Positions 7,872 through 42,501 of a DNA stretch of 53,912 bases are shown here, one piece after another. The notes under the pieces are model-generated. The model saw only the letters and a list, made by a program, of their open reading frames with translations. It did not search any database and was not told the origin of the DNA. This DNA is from a virus: positions 1 through 53,912 of IMG/VR virus record IMGVR_UViG_3300025138_000052, one strand, 5' to 3'. Numbering within the stretch: position 1 is the stretch's first letter; each line of letters opens with the position of its first letter. Made by a program: the position numbers and the translations under genes.

Positions 7872-8567
7872 ATGTCTATTAAAGATCCACTATCTACCTC
7901 CCTTTATTTTCAATCGCCTATCTATCATGTAGAAGCACCTGAATGGGTTAAGTCTACTAATAAAGTTTGTGATACTTATATTAATCAAGCAAGAAAAAAT
8001 TTAAAAAAAACAATTAAGGATAGAGAGAAAAAAACTGGTAAAAAAATAGGAGATCATGGATTAAGTTATCATTCTACTTCTTTGATTGGAGACCCTAAAT
8101 TAAAAGAATTACAAAAATATATCGGAGCCACTAGTTGGAATGTGATGGATCATATGGGTTATGATATGTCAGGGTATGAATTATTTTGGACAGAATTTTG
8201 GGTTCAAGAATTTGCAGATAAAGGTGGTGGACATCACGATAGTCATATTCATTATGATAATCATGTCTCTGGATTTTATTTTTTAGAATGTTCTGAAAAT
8301 ACTTCTATGCCTGTGTTTAATGATCCTAGACTTGCTAAAGTTATGACTCAATTACCATTAAAAAAACCAGAAGAGATTTGTTTTGGAAGTGATAAAATTC
8401 ATTACAAGCCAAAGCCTGGAACTATGATCTTTTTCCCTGCATACTTAGAACATCAATATACCGTAGATGATGGAGTAGAACCTTTTCGATTTATACACTT
8501 TAACTTACAAGCGGTGAGGAAAATGATCACTAATACTTTACGAAGCCCAACCAAGGAGAAAAAATGA
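7872..8567 (+). CDS. 2-oxoglutarate/Fe(II) oxygenase (type 5)
   Basis: A 231-residue protein. HDSHIHYDNHVSGFYFLE is the signature of the 2OG-FeII_Oxy_5 type of family (H.H...SG.yYl), followed by PKPGTMIFFPAYLEHQYTV with the distal H. It differs clearly from both neighbours, so this is not a recent triplication. It overlaps the third oxygenase by 4 bases (ATGA), implying coupled translation. Substrate is unknown; host cofactor or protein modification are possibilities. Confidence 0.75.
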   Translation: MSIKDPLSTSLYFQSPIYHVEAPEWVKSTNKVCDTYINQARKNLKKTIKDREKKTGKKIGDHGLSYHSTSLIGDPKLKELQKYIGATSWNVMDHMGYDMSGYELFWTEFWVQEFADKGGGHHDSHIHYDNHVSGFYFLECSENTSMPVFNDPRLAKVMTQLPLKKPEEICFGSDKIHYKPKPGTMIFFPAYLEHQYTVDDGVEPFRFIHFNLQAVRKMITNTLRSPTKEKK

Positions 8568-21259: not shown

Positions 21260-21812
21260 CATACTTTTACATAAACATTTAATTATTAGAGCTGAGGTCA
21301 ACAAACCGCCTTTATTAGTATCCTATTTAGAAACTTGGCTTAAAAATTTTATTGAATCTATTAAGATGAAATTATTTATGGGACCTTTTGTAAAATATTG
21401 TTCAATGCCTGGTAATAGAGGTGTTACTGCTGTTGCAATTATAGAAACTTCACATATTGCTATGCACGTTTGGGATGAAGTATCTCCTGCACTTATGCAA
21501 TTTGACGTATACTCTTGTAGTAATATTGATCCAAAAGAAATATGCAATAAGATTAAAAAAGATTTTGATATCGTTAAAATTGAATATAAATTTTTAGATA
21601 GAGAAAAAAATTTAAGAGATATAGCAGGAGGAACTTTTAAACCTTTGTCCAATTACAATGAGAAAATGAAAACGAAAAAGGAAAAGATATTGTTTAAAAG
21701 TAGAAAAGAAGTAGATATTAATGGAAACGGCACCACTGGATATACGATCAAGGAAGGTCCTCAAAAAGGAAGAGTTCTTAAACACATTATAATTCCTAGT
21801 AAAAATACTTAG
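21249..21812 (+). CDS. speD: S-adenosylmethionine decarboxylase-like protein
   Basis: A 187-residue protein. IIETSHIAMHVWDEVSP and QFDVYSC match the self-cleaving AdoMet decarboxylase core: S68 would become the pyruvoyl group, with H73 and C90 as the assisting residues. The residue before the serine is Thr rather than the usual Glu, and two residues are inserted before the Cys. In known enzymes the product feeds spermidine synthesis; cyanophages carry this gene. A Lys-rich C-terminal extension (about residues 135-187) is extra. It may be active or a divergent family member. Tail-to-tail with the helicase, stops overlapping by 4 bases. Confidence 0.7.
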   Translation: MSNNILLHKHLIIRAEVNKPPLLVSYLETWLKNFIESIKMKLFMGPFVKYCSMPGNRGVTAVAIIETSHIAMHVWDEVSPALMQFDVYSCSNIDPKEICNKIKKDFDIVKIEYKFLDREKNLRDIAGGTFKPLSNYNEKMKTKKEKILFKSRKEVDINGNGTTGYTIKEGPQKGRVLKHIIIPSKNT

Positions 21813-23262: not shown

Positions 23263-23300
23263 TTGACACAAGATATATAATATCCTATATCTATTGTCAA
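23263..23300. promoter_or_regulatory. Overlapping divergent promoter pair
   Basis: Forward: TTGACA (23263-23268), 17 bases, TATATC (23286-23291). Reverse: TTGACA (23300-23295), 17 bases, TATATC (23277-23272). The two -10/-35 sets overlap, with near dyad symmetry. An ATCCTA box is at 23282-23287. The forward start would fall about at the ATG at 23300, and the reverse start about 23 bases upstream of ATG 23242. Confidence 0.7.
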
Positions 23301-23665
23301 TGACAGAAAGCAAGAAAATAGTATACGTAATCCAAGAGTTGCCTGGTACAAAAATAGGTGCTCCTAAAATTAATATTATGAGTGCGAGTAAGTATGGTGA
23401 GTTTAAATTTTTACTCCCAGAATTTTCTCAAATAATATTTTCACCGGGACCATTGATTTTTAAACTTAGAAAACTTCTACAGGATTATACTGAGAACGAT
23501 TATTTATTATTGACGGGAGACCCTGCAATCATAGGTGTAACTTGTTCTATTGTTTCTGACATGACAAACGGTAGATACAATTTATTAAAATGGGACAAGC
23601 AAGATAGAATGTATTATCCGATTGCAATTAACCTACACGAGAAAGGAAAAGTACAAGATGAATAA
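23300..23665 (+). CDS. Hypothetical early protein, 121 aa
   Basis: A 121-residue protein (MTESKKIVYVIQELPGTKIG, LLLTGDPAIIGVTCSIVSD, YNLLKWDKQDRMYYPI). Similar short proteins with LTGDPAIIG are common in marine phages; no function is known. An alternative TTG start at 23294 is less likely. The ATG lies 8 bases after the -10 with no ribosome site, so the message may be leaderless. Its end overlaps the next gene by 8 bases. Confidence 0.6.
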   Translation: MTESKKIVYVIQELPGTKIGAPKINIMSASKYGEFKFLLPEFSQIIFSPGPLIFKLRKLLQDYTENDYLLLTGDPAIIGVTCSIVSDMTNGRYNLLKWDKQDRMYYPIAINLHEKGKVQDE

Positions 23666-33276: not shown

Positions 33277-33404
33277 TGGCTAAGACTAAAGGAGACGAGT
33301 TTACACCTAGAACAAAAAACCGTAAACGTCCGGGAAGACACACAAAAAGCCTTAATAAAAGCCAAAAATTGAGCTATAAAAAATATCGAGGACAAGGGCG
33401 TTGA
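33276..33404 (+). CDS. Small basic protein, 42 aa
   Basis: MAKTKGDEFTPRTKNRKRPG, then RHTKSLNKSQKLSYKKYRG. Very basic, overlapping the previous stop (TAATG). Its last codons contain the -35 of the next promoter. The RPGRHTKSLNKS motif is conserved in related phages as far as I recall. Probably nucleic-acid binding. Confidence 0.55.
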   Translation: MAKTKGDEFTPRTKNRKRPGRHTKSLNKSQKLSYKKYRGQGR

Positions 33405-33429
33405 CAATTATCATATAATATCCTATAAA
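33401..33429 (+). promoter_or_regulatory. Sigma-70 promoter with 10-bp spaced boxes
   Basis: TTGACA (33401-33406), 17 bases, TATAAA (33424-33429). Within it ATCATA (33410-33415) and ATCCTA (33420-33425) are 10 bp apart. The -35 overlaps the end of the previous gene. Confidence 0.7.
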
Positions 33430-33450
33430 TAAAACATGAAAGGAACTTAT

Positions 33451-33666
33451 ATGATAAAAGAACTAATAACATACAATCGTGGATTAAAAAACTTTGTTGA
33501 AGGAAAAATAATCCAATACATGGGAATACCATTTGAAGAACAAAATTCAGAACCTTTGTTTAACATAATTAATAAATATTTAGACGAAGCAGAAATCATA
33601 CAACTAAGAATAAATACTCTAGAAAGGATGGCCGATGTCGCAAAGAAAAGTAACACTAGTTTGTAA
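33451..33666 (+). CDS. Small helical protein, 71 aa
   Basis: MIKELITYNRGLKNFVEGKI, then a helix-rich remainder with NKYLDEAEIIQLRINTLER. ATG 33451 has AAAGGA at 6 bases; an ATG at 33436 sits only 6 bases after the -10 and would be leaderless. No known function. Overlaps the next gene by 32 bases. Confidence 0.5.
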   Translation: MIKELITYNRGLKNFVEGKIIQYMGIPFEEQNSEPLFNIINKYLDEAEIIQLRINTLERMADVAKKSNTSL

Positions 33667-34052: not shown

Positions 34053-34087
34053 TTGACATTACAGTTATATAGGATATATCCTATATT
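34053..34087 (+). promoter_or_regulatory. Promoter with perfect 20-bp palindrome (operator)
   Basis: TTGACA (34053-34058), 16 bases, TATATC (34075-34080). Superimposed is the perfect palindrome 34067-34086: the half ATATAGGATA followed by its complement TATCCTATAT. TAGGAT and ATCCTA are thus back to back. The ribbon-helix-helix gene begins 28 bases later, so this looks like an autoregulatory operator. Confidence 0.75.
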
Positions 34088-34114
34088 ATATAAACAAATG
34101 AAAGAGGTAAACAA

Positions 34115-34288
34115 ATGACCGATATAACTAAATATAAAAATATATCTTTAAAACATATAGACTATAATCTGATCGATAAAATAAGAAGGGTTTTAGTTCC
34201 TAATATGATTCTAAGTAGATCACAAACAGTAAGCATTATTATTAATGAGAAAGCGAAGAAATTAAATGGAAAACTTAAAAAAGCCTAA
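34115..34288 (+). CDS. Ribbon-helix-helix type regulator, 57 aa
   Basis: Start ATG 34115 with AAAGAGG upstream. MTDITKYKNISLKHIDYNLI, DKIRRVLVPNMI, LSRSQTVSIIINEKAKKL. The beta strand (NISLKHID), helix A, turn and helix B (SRSQTVSIIINEKAKKL) match the Arc/MetJ/CopG fold, which binds tandem or inverted boxes as dimers of dimers. Directly downstream of the 34067-34086 palindrome. Likely represses or tunes the ATCCTA-box promoters. DNA contact by the N-terminal strand is expected but not proven. Confidence 0.6.
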   Translation: MTDITKYKNISLKHIDYNLIDKIRRVLVPNMILSRSQTVSIIINEKAKKLNGKLKKA

Positions 34289-34457
34289 AGCAATATGCCC
34301 TACGTGTAGGGGAAATGGTTATATTAAAGTACCTTTTGAGTTAACTAGAGAATATGTGACTGCACAATGTACGGTGTGTCATAGTCAAGGTGAGATTGAC
34401 GAAGATAAGATTAAAGATATTGTCATAGACTCAGATGGTTTTCACAGCCTACAATAA
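34266..34457 (+). CDS. Small DnaJ-type zinc finger protein, 63 aa
   Basis: CPTCRGNGYIKVPF and CTVCHSQGEIDEDK are the CxxCxGxG half-repeats of DnaJ zinc fingers. Overlaps the regulator by 23 bases and the next gene by 1 base (TAATG). No J domain. Possibly binds nucleic acid or protein clients. Confidence 0.65.
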   Translation: MENLKKPKAICPTCRGNGYIKVPFELTREYVTAQCTVCHSQGEIDEDKIKDIVIDSDGFHSLQ

Positions 34458-37232: not shown

Positions 37233-37722
37233 TTTCTGGTGCGGTTAAAGATTCTAATCTGTCTTTTTGTATTTCTTTAATACGTTTTATTTCTTCTAAT
37301 TTTTCAGCTCTAGTTAGATCATTTAAATTGCCATGAATATGTATATCCATGAATTGACCGGTTGCTTTACCTATTAAATTCTCAAACCCTAATGCCTTAT
37401 CAATCTTACCTTGTTGTACTAATTTCTCAGATAACACTTGCTGTCTTCTAACATAGTTATTTTTTGTTACTGTAAATGATCTGTTAACTTCATTTGATCT
37501 AGCCTGTAAGTACCTTTGAATTTTTGGGTTTTGCATGAGCTCCGACCCTTCTATTCTAGCTCGTTTAGGTTCGTATCCAGCTTGTATGGCCGCCTCTGTT
37601 CTAGTAGTCCTGCCTTCATTCATGATTAAATACTCACAAAATCTACGCTGCATTTCTGTAAGCTCTATTGGATAAGCCGCCTTTTTCTTGACAATTTCTT
37701 GACTCATACTTGCTTTATACAT
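37204..37722 (-). CDS. terS: Terminase small subunit
   Basis: A 172-residue protein: LTEMQRRFCEYLIMNEGR, TEAAIQAGYEPKRARIEGSE, LMQNPKIQRYLQAR are the helix-turn-helix part typical of Terminase_2. The C-terminal half is coiled coil. It binds the packaging site and recruits TerL, which lies 5 kb away and on the other strand. Start ATG 37722 is close to a -10; ATG 37707 is an alternative. Confidence 0.75.
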   Translation of the reverse strand: MYKASMSQEIVKKKAAYPIELTEMQRRFCEYLIMNEGRTTRTEAAIQAGYEPKRARIEGSELMQNPKIQRYLQARSNEVNRSFTVTKNNYVRRQQVLSEKLVQQGKIDKALGFENLIGKATGQFMDIHIHGNLNDLTRAEKLEEIKRIKEIQKDRLESLTAPETNESSESTE

Positions 37723-37755
37723 AATATCTTATATAAACACAATATATGAAAGCAA
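37710..37755. promoter_or_regulatory. Symmetric divergent promoters between terS and 37746
   Basis: Forward: TTGCTT (37710-37715), 16 bases, TATAAA (37732-37737), 8 bases to ATG 37746. Reverse: TTGCTT (37755-37750), 16 bases, TATAAG (37733-37728), 5 bases to ATG 37722. Each -35 lies inside the opposing gene. Both messages would be almost leaderless. Confidence 0.55.
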
Positions 37756-37973
37756 AAGAATTAAGACAATATTTAGACAAATTCTTAACATCTCCCGCAG
37801 CTCAACAAGCTAGAGTTCAGTTTGAATTACCTAATGGTGAAAAATTAGACCTGTACGAAATTCAATTATTGGAAACTAGAATAATTGGTGATAGAGACAC
37901 GCACATTTTAAATTTAAAAGGAATTAAAAGAGGCGGCACTTGGAAGATGCCAAAGATTATCTCTAAATTATAG
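37746..37973 (+). CDS. Small phage protein, 75 aa
   Basis: MKAKELRQYLDKFLTSPAAQ, then QVQFELPNGEKLDLYEIQ-like beta segment and GIKRGGTWKMPKI. Resembles small 'MTIKELREYLD' proteins of unknown function in many phages. ATG lies 8 bases after a -10 with no ribosome site. Followed by the nuclease gene after 11 bases. Confidence 0.5.
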   Translation: MKAKELRQYLDKFLTSPAAQQARVQFELPNGEKLDLYEIQLLETRIIGDRDTHILNLKGIKRGGTWKMPKIISKL

Positions 37974-37984
37974 CAGAGGTTACC

Positions 37985-38422
37985 TTGGCTAAATTAGAGA
38001 AAGATTTGTGGTGTGAAGTTAAAAAATTTAAGAGCAAGATTAATTGGACAAGGCTGGAAAACCGTTGTTTATTTGGGACTCCTGACGTACTGGGTTACAA
38101 TAATAATGGACACTTTTTTCTTGTAGAGCTGAAGGTAACATCAGGTAACAAAATACGCTTTTCACCCCACCAAATAGCCTTTTTCGTACGTCATCCAAAA
38201 AACTCATTTGTCCTTGTTGCCCGGTCCCAGAAACCAGAACCAGGTTCAGAACCAGGTTCAGGAAAAAACAAAAATCGAAAAACAGGGCGGGCCCACCCTA
38301 AGCTTGTGCGCTTGTACCCTGGTTCCAGGATCCTGGAGCTTGTAGACTTAGGCCTCCAGCTTGAACCCTTGGCTTGTGGGCTTGAGGACTGCTTCGCCTT
38401 GCTTGAGGGCTTGGGAGCTTGA
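37985..38422 (+). CDS. VRR-NUC/resolvase-like nuclease with repeat insertion
   Basis: A 145-residue protein from a TTG start with AGAGG 5 bases upstream. LENRCLFGTPDVLGYNNNG (D), HFFLVELKVTSGNKI (E-x-K) and FSPHQIAFFVRHPKNSFVLV form a PD-(D/E)XK nuclease. Residues about 79-100 (KPEPGSEPGSG, then TGRAHP) come from G+C-rich repeat DNA, including one 15-bp element in frame. The remainder (LVRLYPGSRILELVDLGLQL) looks like the native end of the family. Confidence 0.65.
   Translation: MAKLEKDLWCEVKKFKSKINWTRLENRCLFGTPDVLGYNNNGHFFLVELKVTSGNKIRFSPHQIAFFVRHPKNSFVLVARSQKPEPGSEPGSGKNKNRKTGRAHPKLVRLYPGSRILELVDLGLQLEPLACGLEDCFALLEGLGA
38285..38299 (+). repeat. G-rich near-palindrome, copy 1 (in CDS)
   Basis: GGGCGGGCCCACCCT, inside the nuclease gene, in frame (encodes GRAHP). 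Symmetric about GGGCCC except at position 4 (C opposite A). Confidence 0.8.
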
Positions 38423-38430
38423 CGACTTAC

Positions 38431-38445
38431 GGGAGGGCCCACCCT
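38431..38445 (+). repeat. G-rich near-palindrome, copy 2
   Basis: GGGAGGGCCCACCCT followed by a T tract to 38452, 8 bases after the nuclease stop. Preceded by GCTTG repeats. Confidence 0.8.
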
Positions 38446-38452
38446 TTTTTTT

Positions 38453-38474
38453 AAGCTTGCACCCTTGCAAGCTT
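38453..38474. terminator. Stem-loop, candidate terminator between convergent genes
   Basis: AAGCTTGCA (38453-38461) and TGCAAGCTT (38466-38474) form a perfect 9-bp stem with loop CCCT. It lies between the rightward nuclease gene and the leftward GP88-like gene, and could stop transcription, though it has no typical U tract of its own. Confidence 0.45.
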
Positions 38475-38540
38475 GTGGCCCAGCCCCCTGGCGGTTTATT
38501 ATTTTCATTGATTATTTTGATTAGATTTTTAAGTTTCATA

Positions 38541-39152
38541 TTAATGAACCCCGTAAGCTATGTTTTTGATATCAGGGTCCCAGCAATTTCTACAATCTCC
38601 ACAATTGCCGCCTTGAGTTGGAGCCGGGCAGGTTGCATCTTTCGTTACTACGGTTGAAGTATTGCTCCAGGTACCAGCGGATGGCTGGTCGATCATAGTC
38701 ATAGATAAACGAATAATCAAATTTTTTGGGCATCTGGTTAAATGGTCCTTGATCCAGGCTTCTCGAGTTGGCATCCAATGCTGCATATCAGGCGTTAACC
38801 TACAAACGGCAAAAATTTTGTTTAGGTGGTCCAGGTCCTGGACGTCGCCGGCATCGTGCCATCTGAAAACTTTATGCTTTGAAACGGCTTCAGAATTAAT
38901 TACAACGGCCATAGCCTCCACCCATAACGGGTTTTTTATAGACTCAAGCCTTTTATATTGTGCTTGTACAATTGCAGGGAATCTTACATAATTATTTTTT
39001 AATGCATAGCAGCCCTCGCAAACGCTGTTAGGAATCAACCTAAGTTTGGCACCCGTTTTACATTCCGCTGCCGGGATCCCGTAAGCATAGCCCGGCATTT
39101 TCTCCGGCTTGCTCAATGATACTATTATTTTTTTTGCTTCTTTTATATTCAT
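38541..39152 (-). CDS. GP88-like cysteine-rich phage protein
   Basis: A 203-residue protein. MPGYAYGIPAAECKTGAKL, SVCEGCYALKNNYVRFP, VFRWHDAGDVQDLDHLNKIF and a C-terminal cysteine set (CPAPTQGGNCGDCRNC) match the GP88 family of phage proteins, which is widespread and of unknown activity; Cys spacing suggests a metal or Fe-S centre. Leftward gene with its own promoter (39208-39180). The C-terminal reading in other frames here is shadow. Confidence 0.7.
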   Translation of the reverse strand: MNIKEAKKIIVSLSKPEKMPGYAYGIPAAECKTGAKLRLIPNSVCEGCYALKNNYVRFPAIVQAQYKRLESIKNPLWVEAMAVVINSEAVSKHKVFRWHDAGDVQDLDHLNKIFAVCRLTPDMQHWMPTREAWIKDHLTRCPKNLIIRLSMTMIDQPSAGTWSNTSTVVTKDATCPAPTQGGNCGDCRNCWDPDIKNIAYGVH

Positions 39153-39179: not shown

Positions 39180-39208
39180 ATCCTACAATATCCCAGAACC
39201 CCTGTCAA
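39180..39208 (-). promoter_or_regulatory. Leftward promoter with tandem boxes
   Basis: On the minus strand TTGACA (39208-39203), 17 bases, TAGGAT (39185-39180). On the plus strand ATCCTA (39180-39185) and ATCCCA (39190-39195) are 10 bp apart. Drives the GP88-like gene. Confidence 0.65.
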
Positions 39209-39230
39209 GCTTGAACGCTTGCAGCCTTAC

Positions 39231-39245
39231 GGGAGGGCCCACCCT
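39231..39245 (+). repeat. G-rich near-palindrome, copy 3
   Basis: GGGAGGGCCCACCCT, end of the first tandem unit. Confidence 0.85.
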
Positions 39246-39271
39246 GAGAGCTTGAACGCTTGCAGCCTTAC

Positions 39272-39286
39272 GGGAGGGCCCACCCT
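39272..39286 (+). repeat. G-rich near-palindrome, copy 4
   Basis: GGGAGGGCCCACCCT, end of the second tandem unit, followed by seven more T. Confidence 0.85.
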
Positions 39287-39304
39287 TTTTTTTAAAAAAT
39301 TTTC

Positions 39305-39333
39305 CCGCATCAGTTGCATAGCAACCAATGCGG
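39305..39333 (-). terminator. Two-part stem-loop, leftward terminator
   Basis: CCGCAT/ATGCGG outer stem, a CA/CA internal loop, GTTGC/GCAAC inner stem and an ATA loop. On the minus strand it comes 22 bases after the stop of the 39356 gene and is followed shortly by an A4T6 tract, so it should end the leftward operon. TTTT also follows on the plus strand. Confidence 0.6.
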
Positions 39334-39355
39334 TTTTCCAACAGATTGGAATTCA

Positions 39356-39613
39356 TTAATCTAGAAGCGTGTAATATTGCTCAGTAAAATGGACCTGGAA
39401 CCAATGGATCCCCTTCCTTACAATATCATAATCTTCAGCTAGTTCAGCCTCCTTGATGGTGTCGTATACCGCGACCGCGTAACGGGGCAGCTCGCAGGAC
39501 TCACCGCTGTAAGGGTTGGTAACCTCCTCCATCCCAAACTTAGATGCTGGATCAGTCATCATAATTTTAAAGGGCAGCTTTTCAGCTGGTTTAAATATTT
39601 CTTTTAGTTTCAT
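39356..39613 (-). CDS. Small phage protein, 85 aa
   Basis: MKLKEIFKPAEKLPFKIMMT, then CELPRYAVAVYDTIKEAELA, GIHWFQVHFTEQYYTLLD. The aromatic C-terminus resembles a recurrent family in marine phages. ATG overlaps the upstream stop (ATGA), with GGAGGT as ribosome site. Third gene of the leftward operon. Confidence 0.6.
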   Translation of the reverse strand: MKLKEIFKPAEKLPFKIMMTDPASKFGMEEVTNPYSGESCELPRYAVAVYDTIKEAELAEDYDIVRKGIHWFQVHFTEQYYTLLD

Positions 39614-39780
39614 AGATTACCTCCTTGTATATCTTCAATCGTTGAATCATTATTTAAAGCTAAAATAATTTTTTCTTTTAAATTAGCGCTATCCTCCTGA
39701 ATACCTTCAGGAGGGGGCTCGTCTATGTTACAGTCTAGCCAGGTTAACACCATGTCAATGATGGCTTTTTCTTTAGTCAT
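39610..39780 (-). CDS. Small acidic protein, 56 aa
   Basis: MTKEKAIIDMVLTWLDCNID, EPPPEGIQEDSANLKEKIIL, ALNNDSTIEDIQGGNL. ATG 39780 with GGAGGC upstream; TGA overlaps the next ATG. Helical and acidic. Translation coupled to both neighbours. The function is unknown. Confidence 0.65.
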   Translation of the reverse strand: MTKEKAIIDMVLTWLDCNIDEPPPEGIQEDSANLKEKIILALNNDSTIEDIQGGNL

Positions 39781-39928
39781 TTTTAGCCTCCTTATTTTTG
39801 AGCATCTCTAATCTAGCATCTATTTCTTTAATGCTGTTTTGACTCTCAATGATTACTTTCATTAAGGCTATTTTATAGCAGTACAACTCGATTTGATTAC
39901 TGTCTTTTGTAACAAGTTCAACTTTCAT
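39773..39928 (-). CDS. Small helical protein, 51 aa
   Basis: MKVELVTKDSNQIELYCYKI, ALMKVIIESQNSIKEIDARL, ending EMLKNKEAKND. A helical protein with AGAAGGG upstream. First gene of a leftward operon, overlapping the next by 8 bases, under the promoter at 39984-39958. Similar heading to other marine phage helical micro-proteins. Confidence 0.6.
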   Translation of the reverse strand: MKVELVTKDSNQIELYCYKIALMKVIIESQNSIKEIDARLEMLKNKEAKND

Positions 39929-39957: not shown

Positions 39958-39984
39958 AGTATAGGATATTATAGGATCTGTCAA
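39958..39984 (-). promoter_or_regulatory. Leftward promoter with tandem boxes
   Basis: On the minus strand TTGACA (39984-39979), 15 bases, TATACT (39963-39958). TAGGAT at 39962-39967 and 39972-39977 (plus strand) are 10 bp apart. Short spacer is unusual. Confidence 0.6.
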
Positions 39985-40161: not shown

Positions 40162-40190
40162 TTGACATATATCCTACAATATCCTATAAG
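40162..40190 (+). promoter_or_regulatory. Sigma-70 promoter with tandem ATCCTA
   Basis: TTGACA (40162-40167), 17 bases, TATAAG (40185-40190). ATCCTA at 40171-40176 and 40181-40186, 10 bp apart. Drives the rightward operon. Confidence 0.75.
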
Positions 40191-40309: not shown

Positions 40310-40894
40310 ATGAAACCAATACGATCAAATGAACTAGAATTTTTTAAAGAATTAATTAATTCTAAATTCACAGATAAACAACGGTCACTTGATACTGAAA
40401 TAAACATTGAGGCAGAAAAGCTATCCGATAAAAGAAAAGGTGCTTTTGCTTCGGAGTGTGGTGTCAGTAAAGAGTTGAAAGCGTTGGAGCAAGCAGATAA
40501 AAAATATAGGGACTTTATAAGAACTAAAGACCAAGCAGAAAGACTACTTTTAGATAAAGTGGCTTTGATTGGTACTTCCTTGTCCGAGAAGCTAGGACGG
40601 TTGTCCAAGAATAGAGACTGGAACGACAGCTTTCACGATTTTAGTCCTAAGGAAGACGGCGTTGAATTTTTTATTACACGCCTAGATAATGCTTGTTATC
40701 GAGAAGCAGAAAGACACGTTAAAAAAGGGCATAAGTTATTTAATGCTTTAAAAGAAAAAAAGGACAATTGTAAATTAATTGTTCACACTGGAAGCGACAT
40801 ACAAACCACTGTTCAAACGCTTCAAACTGAAATGGGTAGCGCAGATATAAGGTTATCTATTCCTGATAAACTTTTACAGATAGCTGTAAAATAA
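40310..40894 (+). CDS. Helical phage protein, 194 aa
   Basis: A helical, charged protein (MKPIRSNELEFFKELINSKF, LSDKRKGAFASECG, KEDGVEFFITRLDNACYREA, SDIQTTVQTLQTEMG). AGAAAGGA as ribosome site. No enzyme motif. Its first part resembles 'MKPIRTNELxYF' proteins in related phages as I recall. Ends just before another tandem-box promoter. Confidence 0.5.
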   Translation: MKPIRSNELEFFKELINSKFTDKQRSLDTEINIEAEKLSDKRKGAFASECGVSKELKALEQADKKYRDFIRTKDQAERLLLDKVALIGTSLSEKLGRLSKNRDWNDSFHDFSPKEDGVEFFITRLDNACYREAERHVKKGHKLFNALKEKKDNCKLIVHTGSDIQTTVQTLQTEMGSADIRLSIPDKLLQIAVK

Positions 40895-40898
40895 GCAC

Positions 40899-40932
40899 TT
40901 GACATCCCTATCCTATTGGTTATAGGATAGGG
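40899..40932 (+). promoter_or_regulatory. Promoter with 11-bp inverted repeat
   Basis: TTGACA (40899-40904) then -10 TATAGG or TAGGAT (40921-40928). CCCTATCCTAT (40906-40916) and ATAGGATAGGG (40922-40932) are a perfect inverted repeat around 5 bases. A likely operator between -35 and -10. Confidence 0.65.
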
Positions 40933-42095: not shown

Positions 42096-42123
42096 TTGTT
42101 TATCCTATTAGATCCTATATAAC
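42096..42123 (+). promoter_or_regulatory. Promoter-like site with tandem ATCCTA
   Basis: Weak -35 TTGTTT (42096-42101), 16 bases, TATAAC (42118-42123). ATCCTA at 42102-42107 and 42112-42117 are 10 bp apart. Confidence 0.5.
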
Positions 42124-42150: not shown

Positions 42151-42501
42151 ATGCCACTAGAAGTACACTACGTAAACGACAAATCTTGGAACCCGGAAAC
42201 TGAAAAGTTTGACGATCCAAAATTAAGAAATGAGGCGGATGATATTGGTCACATATTAATGTTGATTGGTATTACTGAGGTAACTGATCAGACAATCCCA
42301 GAGATCATAATCAGAAGCATGATTTTGGACAGGGTGTATAATAACAAGGAAAGAAAACCTGAAGTGTTCACTGCTCCTTTACAAAGACACATAGGTTTAA
42401 AAATTGAGGGAAAATGGGCGGGCAACGAGACTCGTTGGAAGTTCACATCTCGTATTGCCAAAGGTATGATGCATGATATTGCTAACACGGTGTTGAACTA
42501 A
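42151..42501 (+). CDS. Conserved phage protein, 116 aa
   Basis: MPLEVHYVNDKSWNPETEKF, NEADDIGHILMLIGITEVTD, VFTAPLQRHIGLK, RIAKGMMHDIANTVLN. Helical and soluble with no recognised enzyme motif. AAAGGAAAA ribosome site under a tandem-box promoter. Similar 'TIPEIIIRSMILDRVYN' proteins exist in marine phages. Followed by a strong hairpin. Confidence 0.5.
   Translation: MPLEVHYVNDKSWNPETEKFDDPKLRNEADDIGHILMLIGITEVTDQTIPEIIIRSMILDRVYNNKERKPEVFTAPLQRHIGLKIEGKWAGNETRWKFTSRIAKGMMHDIANTVLN

Follow-up and report, generated by a model that had tools for sequence, protein, structure and literature searches.

A Predicted Ribbon-Helix-Helix Repressor and Its Candidate Half-Site Code at Host-Type Promoters of an HTVC023P-Type Pelagiphage

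Main Finding and Virus Record

In this study, we believe that a 57-aa protein, predicted to be of the ribbon-helix-helix (RHH) type, is an autoregulated dimeric repressor that controls several non-structural promoters of a lytic HTVC023P-type pelagiphage dependent on host RNA polymerase, and we assign this reading a probability of roughly 0.77. Binding by a dimer, repression rather than activation, and an effect on timing are what we infer from a symmetric site in the promoter of the gene, its conservation in relatives, its recurrence at other promoters, the 10-bp phasing of its half-sites, and the association of these half-sites with the gene.

The 53,912-nucleotide DNA analyzed here (the window) is a virus record of 53.9 kb that carries genes for a family A DNA polymerase and a terminase as well as portal-like genes, all named by resemblance; the polymerase and terminase genes were also checked by search, and the portal-like genes were identified by resemblance only. 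Judged by terminase and polymerase (64%), the closest named relative is Pelagibacter phage HTVC027P, followed by psg01, HTVC023P, and DSL-LC04. HTVC027P is described as lytic and as encoding no RNA polymerase (PMC12753301), and HTVC023P-type pelagiphages are called widespread (PMC9599517). A search of the window for an integrase gave no match, with its positive control positive. The search of the window for a phage RNA polymerase also gave no match, but its positive control was silent too, and the absence of this enzyme is not concluded. Rfam families and tRNAs were not found in the window.

The 57-aa Protein

34115–34288, + strand: 57-aa regulator, predicted RHH (ORF, fold model, remote homology)

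An earlier note on this DNA had ascribed an RHH pattern to this protein, and the assignment is supported by an AlphaFold model, by a VIA alignment led by RHH proteins, and by a homologue in psg01 that matches RHH_1 weakly. The AlphaFold2 model, built with 38 sequences, had a mean pLDDT of 82.6 and placed helices at residues 14–27 and 35–50 behind an N-terminal ribbon segment, and in size and location these agree with the two helices that come after the beta-strand in RHH proteins. The monomer model also had a short helix at residues 5–9, where the ribbon ought to start, which can happen in monomer models. When 163 chains were realigned with the model by VIA-align, the best rows were TraM, ParB of pCXC100, Arc, Rv0298, and MazE6, and we take the top nine rows and NikR at rank 11 to be RHH proteins. 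The VIA-align Z was low throughout (best 4.2), as is expected given so small a domain. Foldseek with the monomer model returned nothing at E ≤ 1e-3; the histones at the top of its matches had E above 1 and were not used.

The protein of the window had no match in Pfam, PHROGs, or NCBIfam, and its only good match among annotated phages was gp21 of HTVC027P (51%, E 1e-7). Relatives were present on at least 518 IMG/VR stretches in one scan, and the best 80 from each of two IMG/VR scans were taken. The family HMM matched one small protein of psg01 (E 4e-4) and one of HTVC023P (E 1e-3), both chosen by eye before the HMM scored them. The positional homologue in psg01 matched Pfam RHH_1 with an E of 0.0023 and 18.3 bits, just below the cut-off of 20.5. 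A profile search of PDB sequences gave seven chains with E up to 10; neither Arc nor any other RHH protein was among these, and no significant similarity to Arc was found. Because the model, the VIA alignments, the family HMM, and the RHH_1 match of psg01 combine, the predicted fold is very likely RHH. Residues N9 and S11 are nearly invariant across the family, and residues 9, 11, and 13 would presumably face the DNA, by comparison with Arc. Ribosomal_L50 was the best Pfam row over 40 family members (14 members, E down to 1.2e-5); it is probably spurious, the model and context being unlike those of a ribosomal protein.

The Operator in the Promoter of the RHH Gene

34053–34058, + strand: −35 box TTGACA of the RHH operon promoter (sequence)
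34067–34086, no strand: perfect 20-bp palindrome ATATAGGATATATCCTATAT, candidate autoregulatory operator (sequence, conservation in relatives)

A perfect 20-bp palindrome at 34067–34086 had previously been reported in the promoter ahead of the 57-residue ORF (34115–34288), and both positions proved exact, with TTGACA at 34053–34058. The half-sites are TAGGA (34070–34074) and TCCTA (34079–34083), 9 bp apart, and two candidate −10 elements lie inside the palindrome, namely TATATC (spacer 16) and TATCCT (spacer 18). The gene therefore has the symmetric operator overlapping its own promoter by which autoregulated RHH repressors are recognized. Among the 10 perfect palindromes of at least 14 bp in the window, this is the longest. 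Its size by itself is borderline (approximately 1 in 20 per window) because 60 first-order Markov copies of the window averaged 0.05 palindromes of at least 20 bp. However, the palindrome is well beyond chance because at least one half-site is conserved in 56 of 58 non-redundant promoter regions of relatives.

For this comparison, regions with fewer than 100 upstream bases were dropped, near-identical promoters were collapsed before counting, and 149 regions were reduced to 58, each separated from the others by more than 20 differences over 80 positions. The contig L003, which encodes an identical protein and carries the same palindromic site, was excluded from both motif training and the count, being identical to the window. 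Expectation maximization on 63 non-redundant regions, with the window excluded, gave the symmetric motif ATATGGGATATATCCCATAT upstream of the relatives' genes at a constant position, which either overlaps the −35 and −10 elements or falls in the space separating them. The half-site TCYYA/TRRGA lay no more than 38 nt from a TTGAC[AT] box in the 56 regions, and the two misses were L160 (no half-site) and L068 (no TTGAC box). A dyad of 7–10 bp was present in 25 regions (window included), a dyad of 17–21 bp in one, and a single half-site in 30, so that the dyad class accounts for under half of the regions. The perfect palindrome is a special case of a degenerate half-site code. The arrangement had been interpreted as that of an autoregulated Arc/CopG-type repressor. 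Given the fold model, the psg01 homology, and the operator conserved before relatives, an autoregulated RHH repressor is still the best reading, but by sequence the protein belongs to neither the Arc nor the CopG family.

Repression is what we expect of this protein because the half-sites sit between the −35 and −10 elements or on the −10 element. It seems unlikely that the protein is instead mainly an activator or a dual regulator that brings host RNA polymerase to its promoters. Such a role would suit the reports that HTVC027P uses host RNA polymerase throughout, with transcripts that rise late (PMC12753301), and that AvtR both activates and represses (PMC5569661). However, a protein bound at these positions should block the polymerase, and the sites include the promoter of the 57-aa gene itself. 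A dual action, with activation as well as repression, is possible.

Half-Sites at Other Promoters of the Window

33401–33427, + strand: TTGACA promoter with half-site TCCTA (33421–33425), ahead of ORF 33436–33666 (motif search)
23263–23300, no strand: two divergent TTGACA promoters that overlap (23263 +, 23300 −) and enclose one ATATCCTATA (motif search)
39180–39208, − strand: TTGACA-17-TAGGAT with 10-bp direct repeat TGGGA/TAGGA, ahead of ORF 38541–39152 (motif search, orthologues)
39958–39984, − strand: TTGACA with 10-bp direct repeat TCCTA/TCCTA, ahead of ORF 39773–39928 (motif search)
40162–40188, + strand: TTGACA with 10-bp direct repeat TCCTA/TCCTA, upstream of ORF 40310–40894 (motif search)
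40899–40932, + strand: TTGACA with inverted half-sites (11-bp perfect arms, 5-bp spacer), ahead of ORF 40953 (motif search, orthologues)
42103–42117, + strand: 10-bp direct repeat TCCTA/TCCTA without consensus −35 box, ahead of ORF 42151–42501 (motif search)
37699–37733, + strand: weaker candidate, TTGACT with degenerate half-site TCTTA, ahead of ORF 37746–37973 (motif search)

The same half-sites recur at other promoters of the window, a point absent from the earlier note, and the palindrome is part of a broader regulatory code in this phage. The word ATATCCTATA recurs beside other TTGACA boxes. On either strand, ATCCTATA was found in 7 of the 60 TTGAC[AT] windows of the record, versus a mean of 0.07 for permuted words, and none of 400 permutations reached 7. 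The regex detected seven TTGAC elements, every one within the non-structural part (20.6–42.7 kb). In relatives, the 8-mers most enriched after TTGAC[AT] were TAGGATAA, GGATATTA, ATATAGGA, and ATCCTATA, and not TATAAT.

The divergent promoters at 23263–23300 precede ORF 23300–23665 (+) and a helicase-like ORF ending at 21809 (−), and this site is not conserved in L126. ORF 38541–39152 is the orthologue of gp33 of HTVC027P. In many relatives, its orthologues have two half-sites 10 bp apart with varying bases (TGGGA/TAGGA, TAAGA/TAGGA, TGAGA/TAGGA), and the remaining orthologues have one half-site or none. At the position of the weaker candidate, several relatives have TGGGA or TCCTA.

The spacing of the half-sites was phased. 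As in the promoter comparison, near-identical promoters were merged before the enriched 8-mers and the pairs were counted. Pairs of TCCYA in the same orientation occurred 28 times at exactly 10 bp and at most 3 times at every other spacing; random windows at the same loci gave 2.2, and control words gave at most 6 pairs at any one spacing. Behind the 10-bp repeats (41 windows, of which 6 have no ORF) lie unrelated ORFs that form 21 clusters, and some of these ORFs may be spurious. Because the downstream ORFs fall into 21 unrelated clusters, common descent of one promoter does not explain the repeats.

Association of the Half-Sites with the RHH Gene

The 8-mer half-site was present in 13 of 133 TTGAC windows of gene-bearing sequence (the window plus bases 1–50000 of the 57595 of HTVC027P), together with six pairs. 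In four pelagiphages that lack the gene but infect the same host (HTVC010P, HTVC011P, and HTVC019P whole, and bases 1–89900 of the 147284 of HTVC008M), it was present in 1 of 238, with no pair; one half-site was found in HTVC008M, which is without the RHH gene. Two phages with a diverged RHH gene were intermediate (bases 1–50000 of each): psg01 had the 8-mer in 3 of 52 TTGAC windows, and HTVC023P had it in 0 of 45, with a 7-mer in 4.

Nine SAR11 assemblies with an RHH relative (single-cell or metagenome, approximately 7.8 Mb) were searched with two patterns. Of the 12 matches, 8 were on contigs with the RHH gene (G001:C7, G003:C6, G004:C20) and 4 were elsewhere; the backwards control pattern gave 4 matches in all. 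In G001, G003, and G004 alone, 8 of 9 matches fell on approximately 5% of the sequence. In 12 longer phage records, there were 20 pattern matches, including some at the promoter of the RHH gene itself, versus 5 for the backwards pattern. Because these records differ and two have no match at all, the regulon size varies; the patterns miss degenerate sites.

These counts bear on the idea that the TCCTA/TAGGA words are an unusual host-type promoter, that is, an extended or variant −10 element, and that the RHH gene merely has one. The half-sites do commonly overlap the −10 position, for example in TTGACA-17-TAGGAT, and TATAWT commonly comes after TCC. However, the SAR11 assemblies are nearly without the pattern off the RHH contigs (4 of the 12 matches), the four gene-free pelagiphages have it in only 1 of 238 windows, and a −10 element leaves the second half-site at exactly 10 bp and the dyads in both orientations unexplained. 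We therefore consider a variant promoter distinctly improbable and retain the reading as operators of an RHH repressor. The words as a general SAR11 promoter element were likewise set aside, with the SAR11 matches concentrated on RHH contigs and the low count in the gene-free pelagiphages.

In HTVC023P (L085), four promoters, at 7936, 13014, 15159, and 16551, have ATGGGATA near the −10 element, and the diverged RHH gene is at 8538. They probably reflect the same regulation in a diverged state. The first motif regex overlooked them, and the permutation count picks them up.

A role as lysogeny repressor was also considered for temperate relatives, and the TCYYA dyad was absent before the distant RHH relatives of L002 and L095–L099. 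The relative in L002 (3001–3252) belongs to a temperate-type marine phage and lies beside an integrase and an RNA polymerase; it is preceded by the inverted repeat ATGTTC...GAACAT, which differs from TCYYA. An INPHARED search with the L002 protein matched no other record. The relatives L095–L099 are on SAR11 contigs.

The Neighboring 63-aa Gene

34266–34457, + strand: 63-aa zinc-finger-like protein with two CxxC pairs (ORF, weak PHROG matches)

The start of this ORF overlaps the 3′ end of the RHH gene, and the two presumably share an operon. In 43 of 56 distinct relatives, the gene next after the RHH gene encodes a protein of the same kind. Its PHROG matches are weak and include Q-like antiterminators (E 0.004), and it may be a second transcription factor. 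A toxin–antitoxin pair, with the RHH protein as antitoxin and the overlapping 63-aa protein as toxin, would agree with this conserved small overlapping partner and with the RHH antitoxin structures high in the VIA-align ranking, but is very improbable, for the partner is zinc-finger-like and is a different one in 12 of 56 relatives, the PADLOC search matched neither the RHH protein nor its neighbors and no recognizable toxin gene adjoins it, and candidate operators stand at many unrelated genes.

Proposed Regulation and Comparison with Known Systems

For the autoregulated RHH repressor, we propose that each dimer would use its N-terminal beta-ribbon to read the 5-bp half-site TCYYA (TRRGA in reverse), and that two dimers would bind cooperatively where half-sites are approximately one helical turn apart, either as dyads (7–9 bp) or as direct repeats (exactly 10 bp). 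At its own promoter, where the half-sites form a palindrome over the −10 region, accumulating repressor would turn off its own operon. Other host-type promoters in the non-structural region carry the same code, and there the repressor would hold down transcription once early infection is over. Direct or inverted half-sites at a distance of roughly one turn, between the −35 and −10 elements or on the −10 element, fit cooperative RHH dimers that block host polymerase, as in omega and F55.

Small RHH repressors are familiar in phages. For example, Arc and Mnt are encoded by the temperate phage P22, and their operator differs from TCYYA; the structure of Arc is among the VIA-align matches of our model, with no sequence similarity found. 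The repeats of ParR-type centromeres are 10 bp. Further likenesses are found outside bacteriophages. F55 of SSV1 is a 6.3-kDa viral RHH dimer that binds tandem repeats and thereby represses its own promoter as well as several early ones; unlike the present case, it maintains the lysogenic state in an archaeon, and its repeat word is ATAGATAG (PMC5569661), whereas the window phage has no integrase match, a relative described as obligately lytic, and the half-site TCYYA. Similarly, SvtR and AvtR of archaeal viruses are RHH regulators with sites at their own promoter and several further viral sites, but they have other operator words and archaeal promoters, and AvtR is a fused tandem RHH (PMC5569661). 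Omega (ParB) of pSM19035 binds one RHH dimer per short non-palindromic repeat, with the repeats in either orientation over several promoters and with low affinity for one repeat and high affinity for two; it differs in its 7-bp spacing, its arrays of 7–10 repeats, and its partition role (PMC9499535). Virus-encoded RHH regulators with several sites are thus already known (F55, SvtR, AvtR), and what seems new is this RHH family, its half-site code, and its occurrence in a lytic bacteriophage that encodes no polymerase. No article on pelagiphage together with ribbon-helix-helix was found in the literature searched, with subscription journals and preprints outside the scope.

According to RNA-seq of HTVC027P, the temporal clusters of this phage are mosaic, all early genes are of unknown function, and an extra temporal cluster consists of two genes, gp33 and gp34, which are high at 6–9 h (PMC12753301). 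Promoters are not mentioned in the main text of that paper, nor in a second pelagiphage paper. Before the expression data were consulted, we had flagged six HTVC027P promoters, those before gp02, gp21, gp33, gp34, gp36, and gp38. The chance that both gp33 and gp34 are among six flagged of 87 features is 0.004 if they are independent; the two genes adjoin, lie on the same strand, and may be cotranscribed, and the agreement is weak support for this reason.

We would suggest only tentatively, as an idea that is more doubtful than probable, that HTVC023P-type pelagiphages have as their central timing regulator a single 57-aa RHH repressor, which reads helically phased half-sites at scattered host-type promoters and takes the place of a phage polymerase or sigma factor. 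If this is true, the mosaic nature of the temporal clusters in HTVC027P would come down to the choice of promoters that bear the half-sites, perhaps with a contribution from the conserved zinc-finger partner. The hosts are the ocean's most abundant bacteria, and the protein is a candidate for how polymerase-less viruses time their genes. With a named regulator and a defined operator word, the question of gene timing in HTVC027P becomes testable.

Other Elements near the Promoters

Two further kinds of element were observed near these promoters. At 37699–37745 of the window, an TTGACTCATACTTGC motif lies upstream of ORF 37746, and ACTTGC is conserved there in many relatives; this region may stand for a second class of promoter, marked by a TTGC box. 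At 38191–38508 and 39183–39356, GC-rich, repeat-like stretches with GGGCGGGCCC and CAAGC words stand before minus-strand genes and are possibly terminators or leader hairpins; words like GGGCGGGCCC/CAAGC also precede the orthologues in many relatives.
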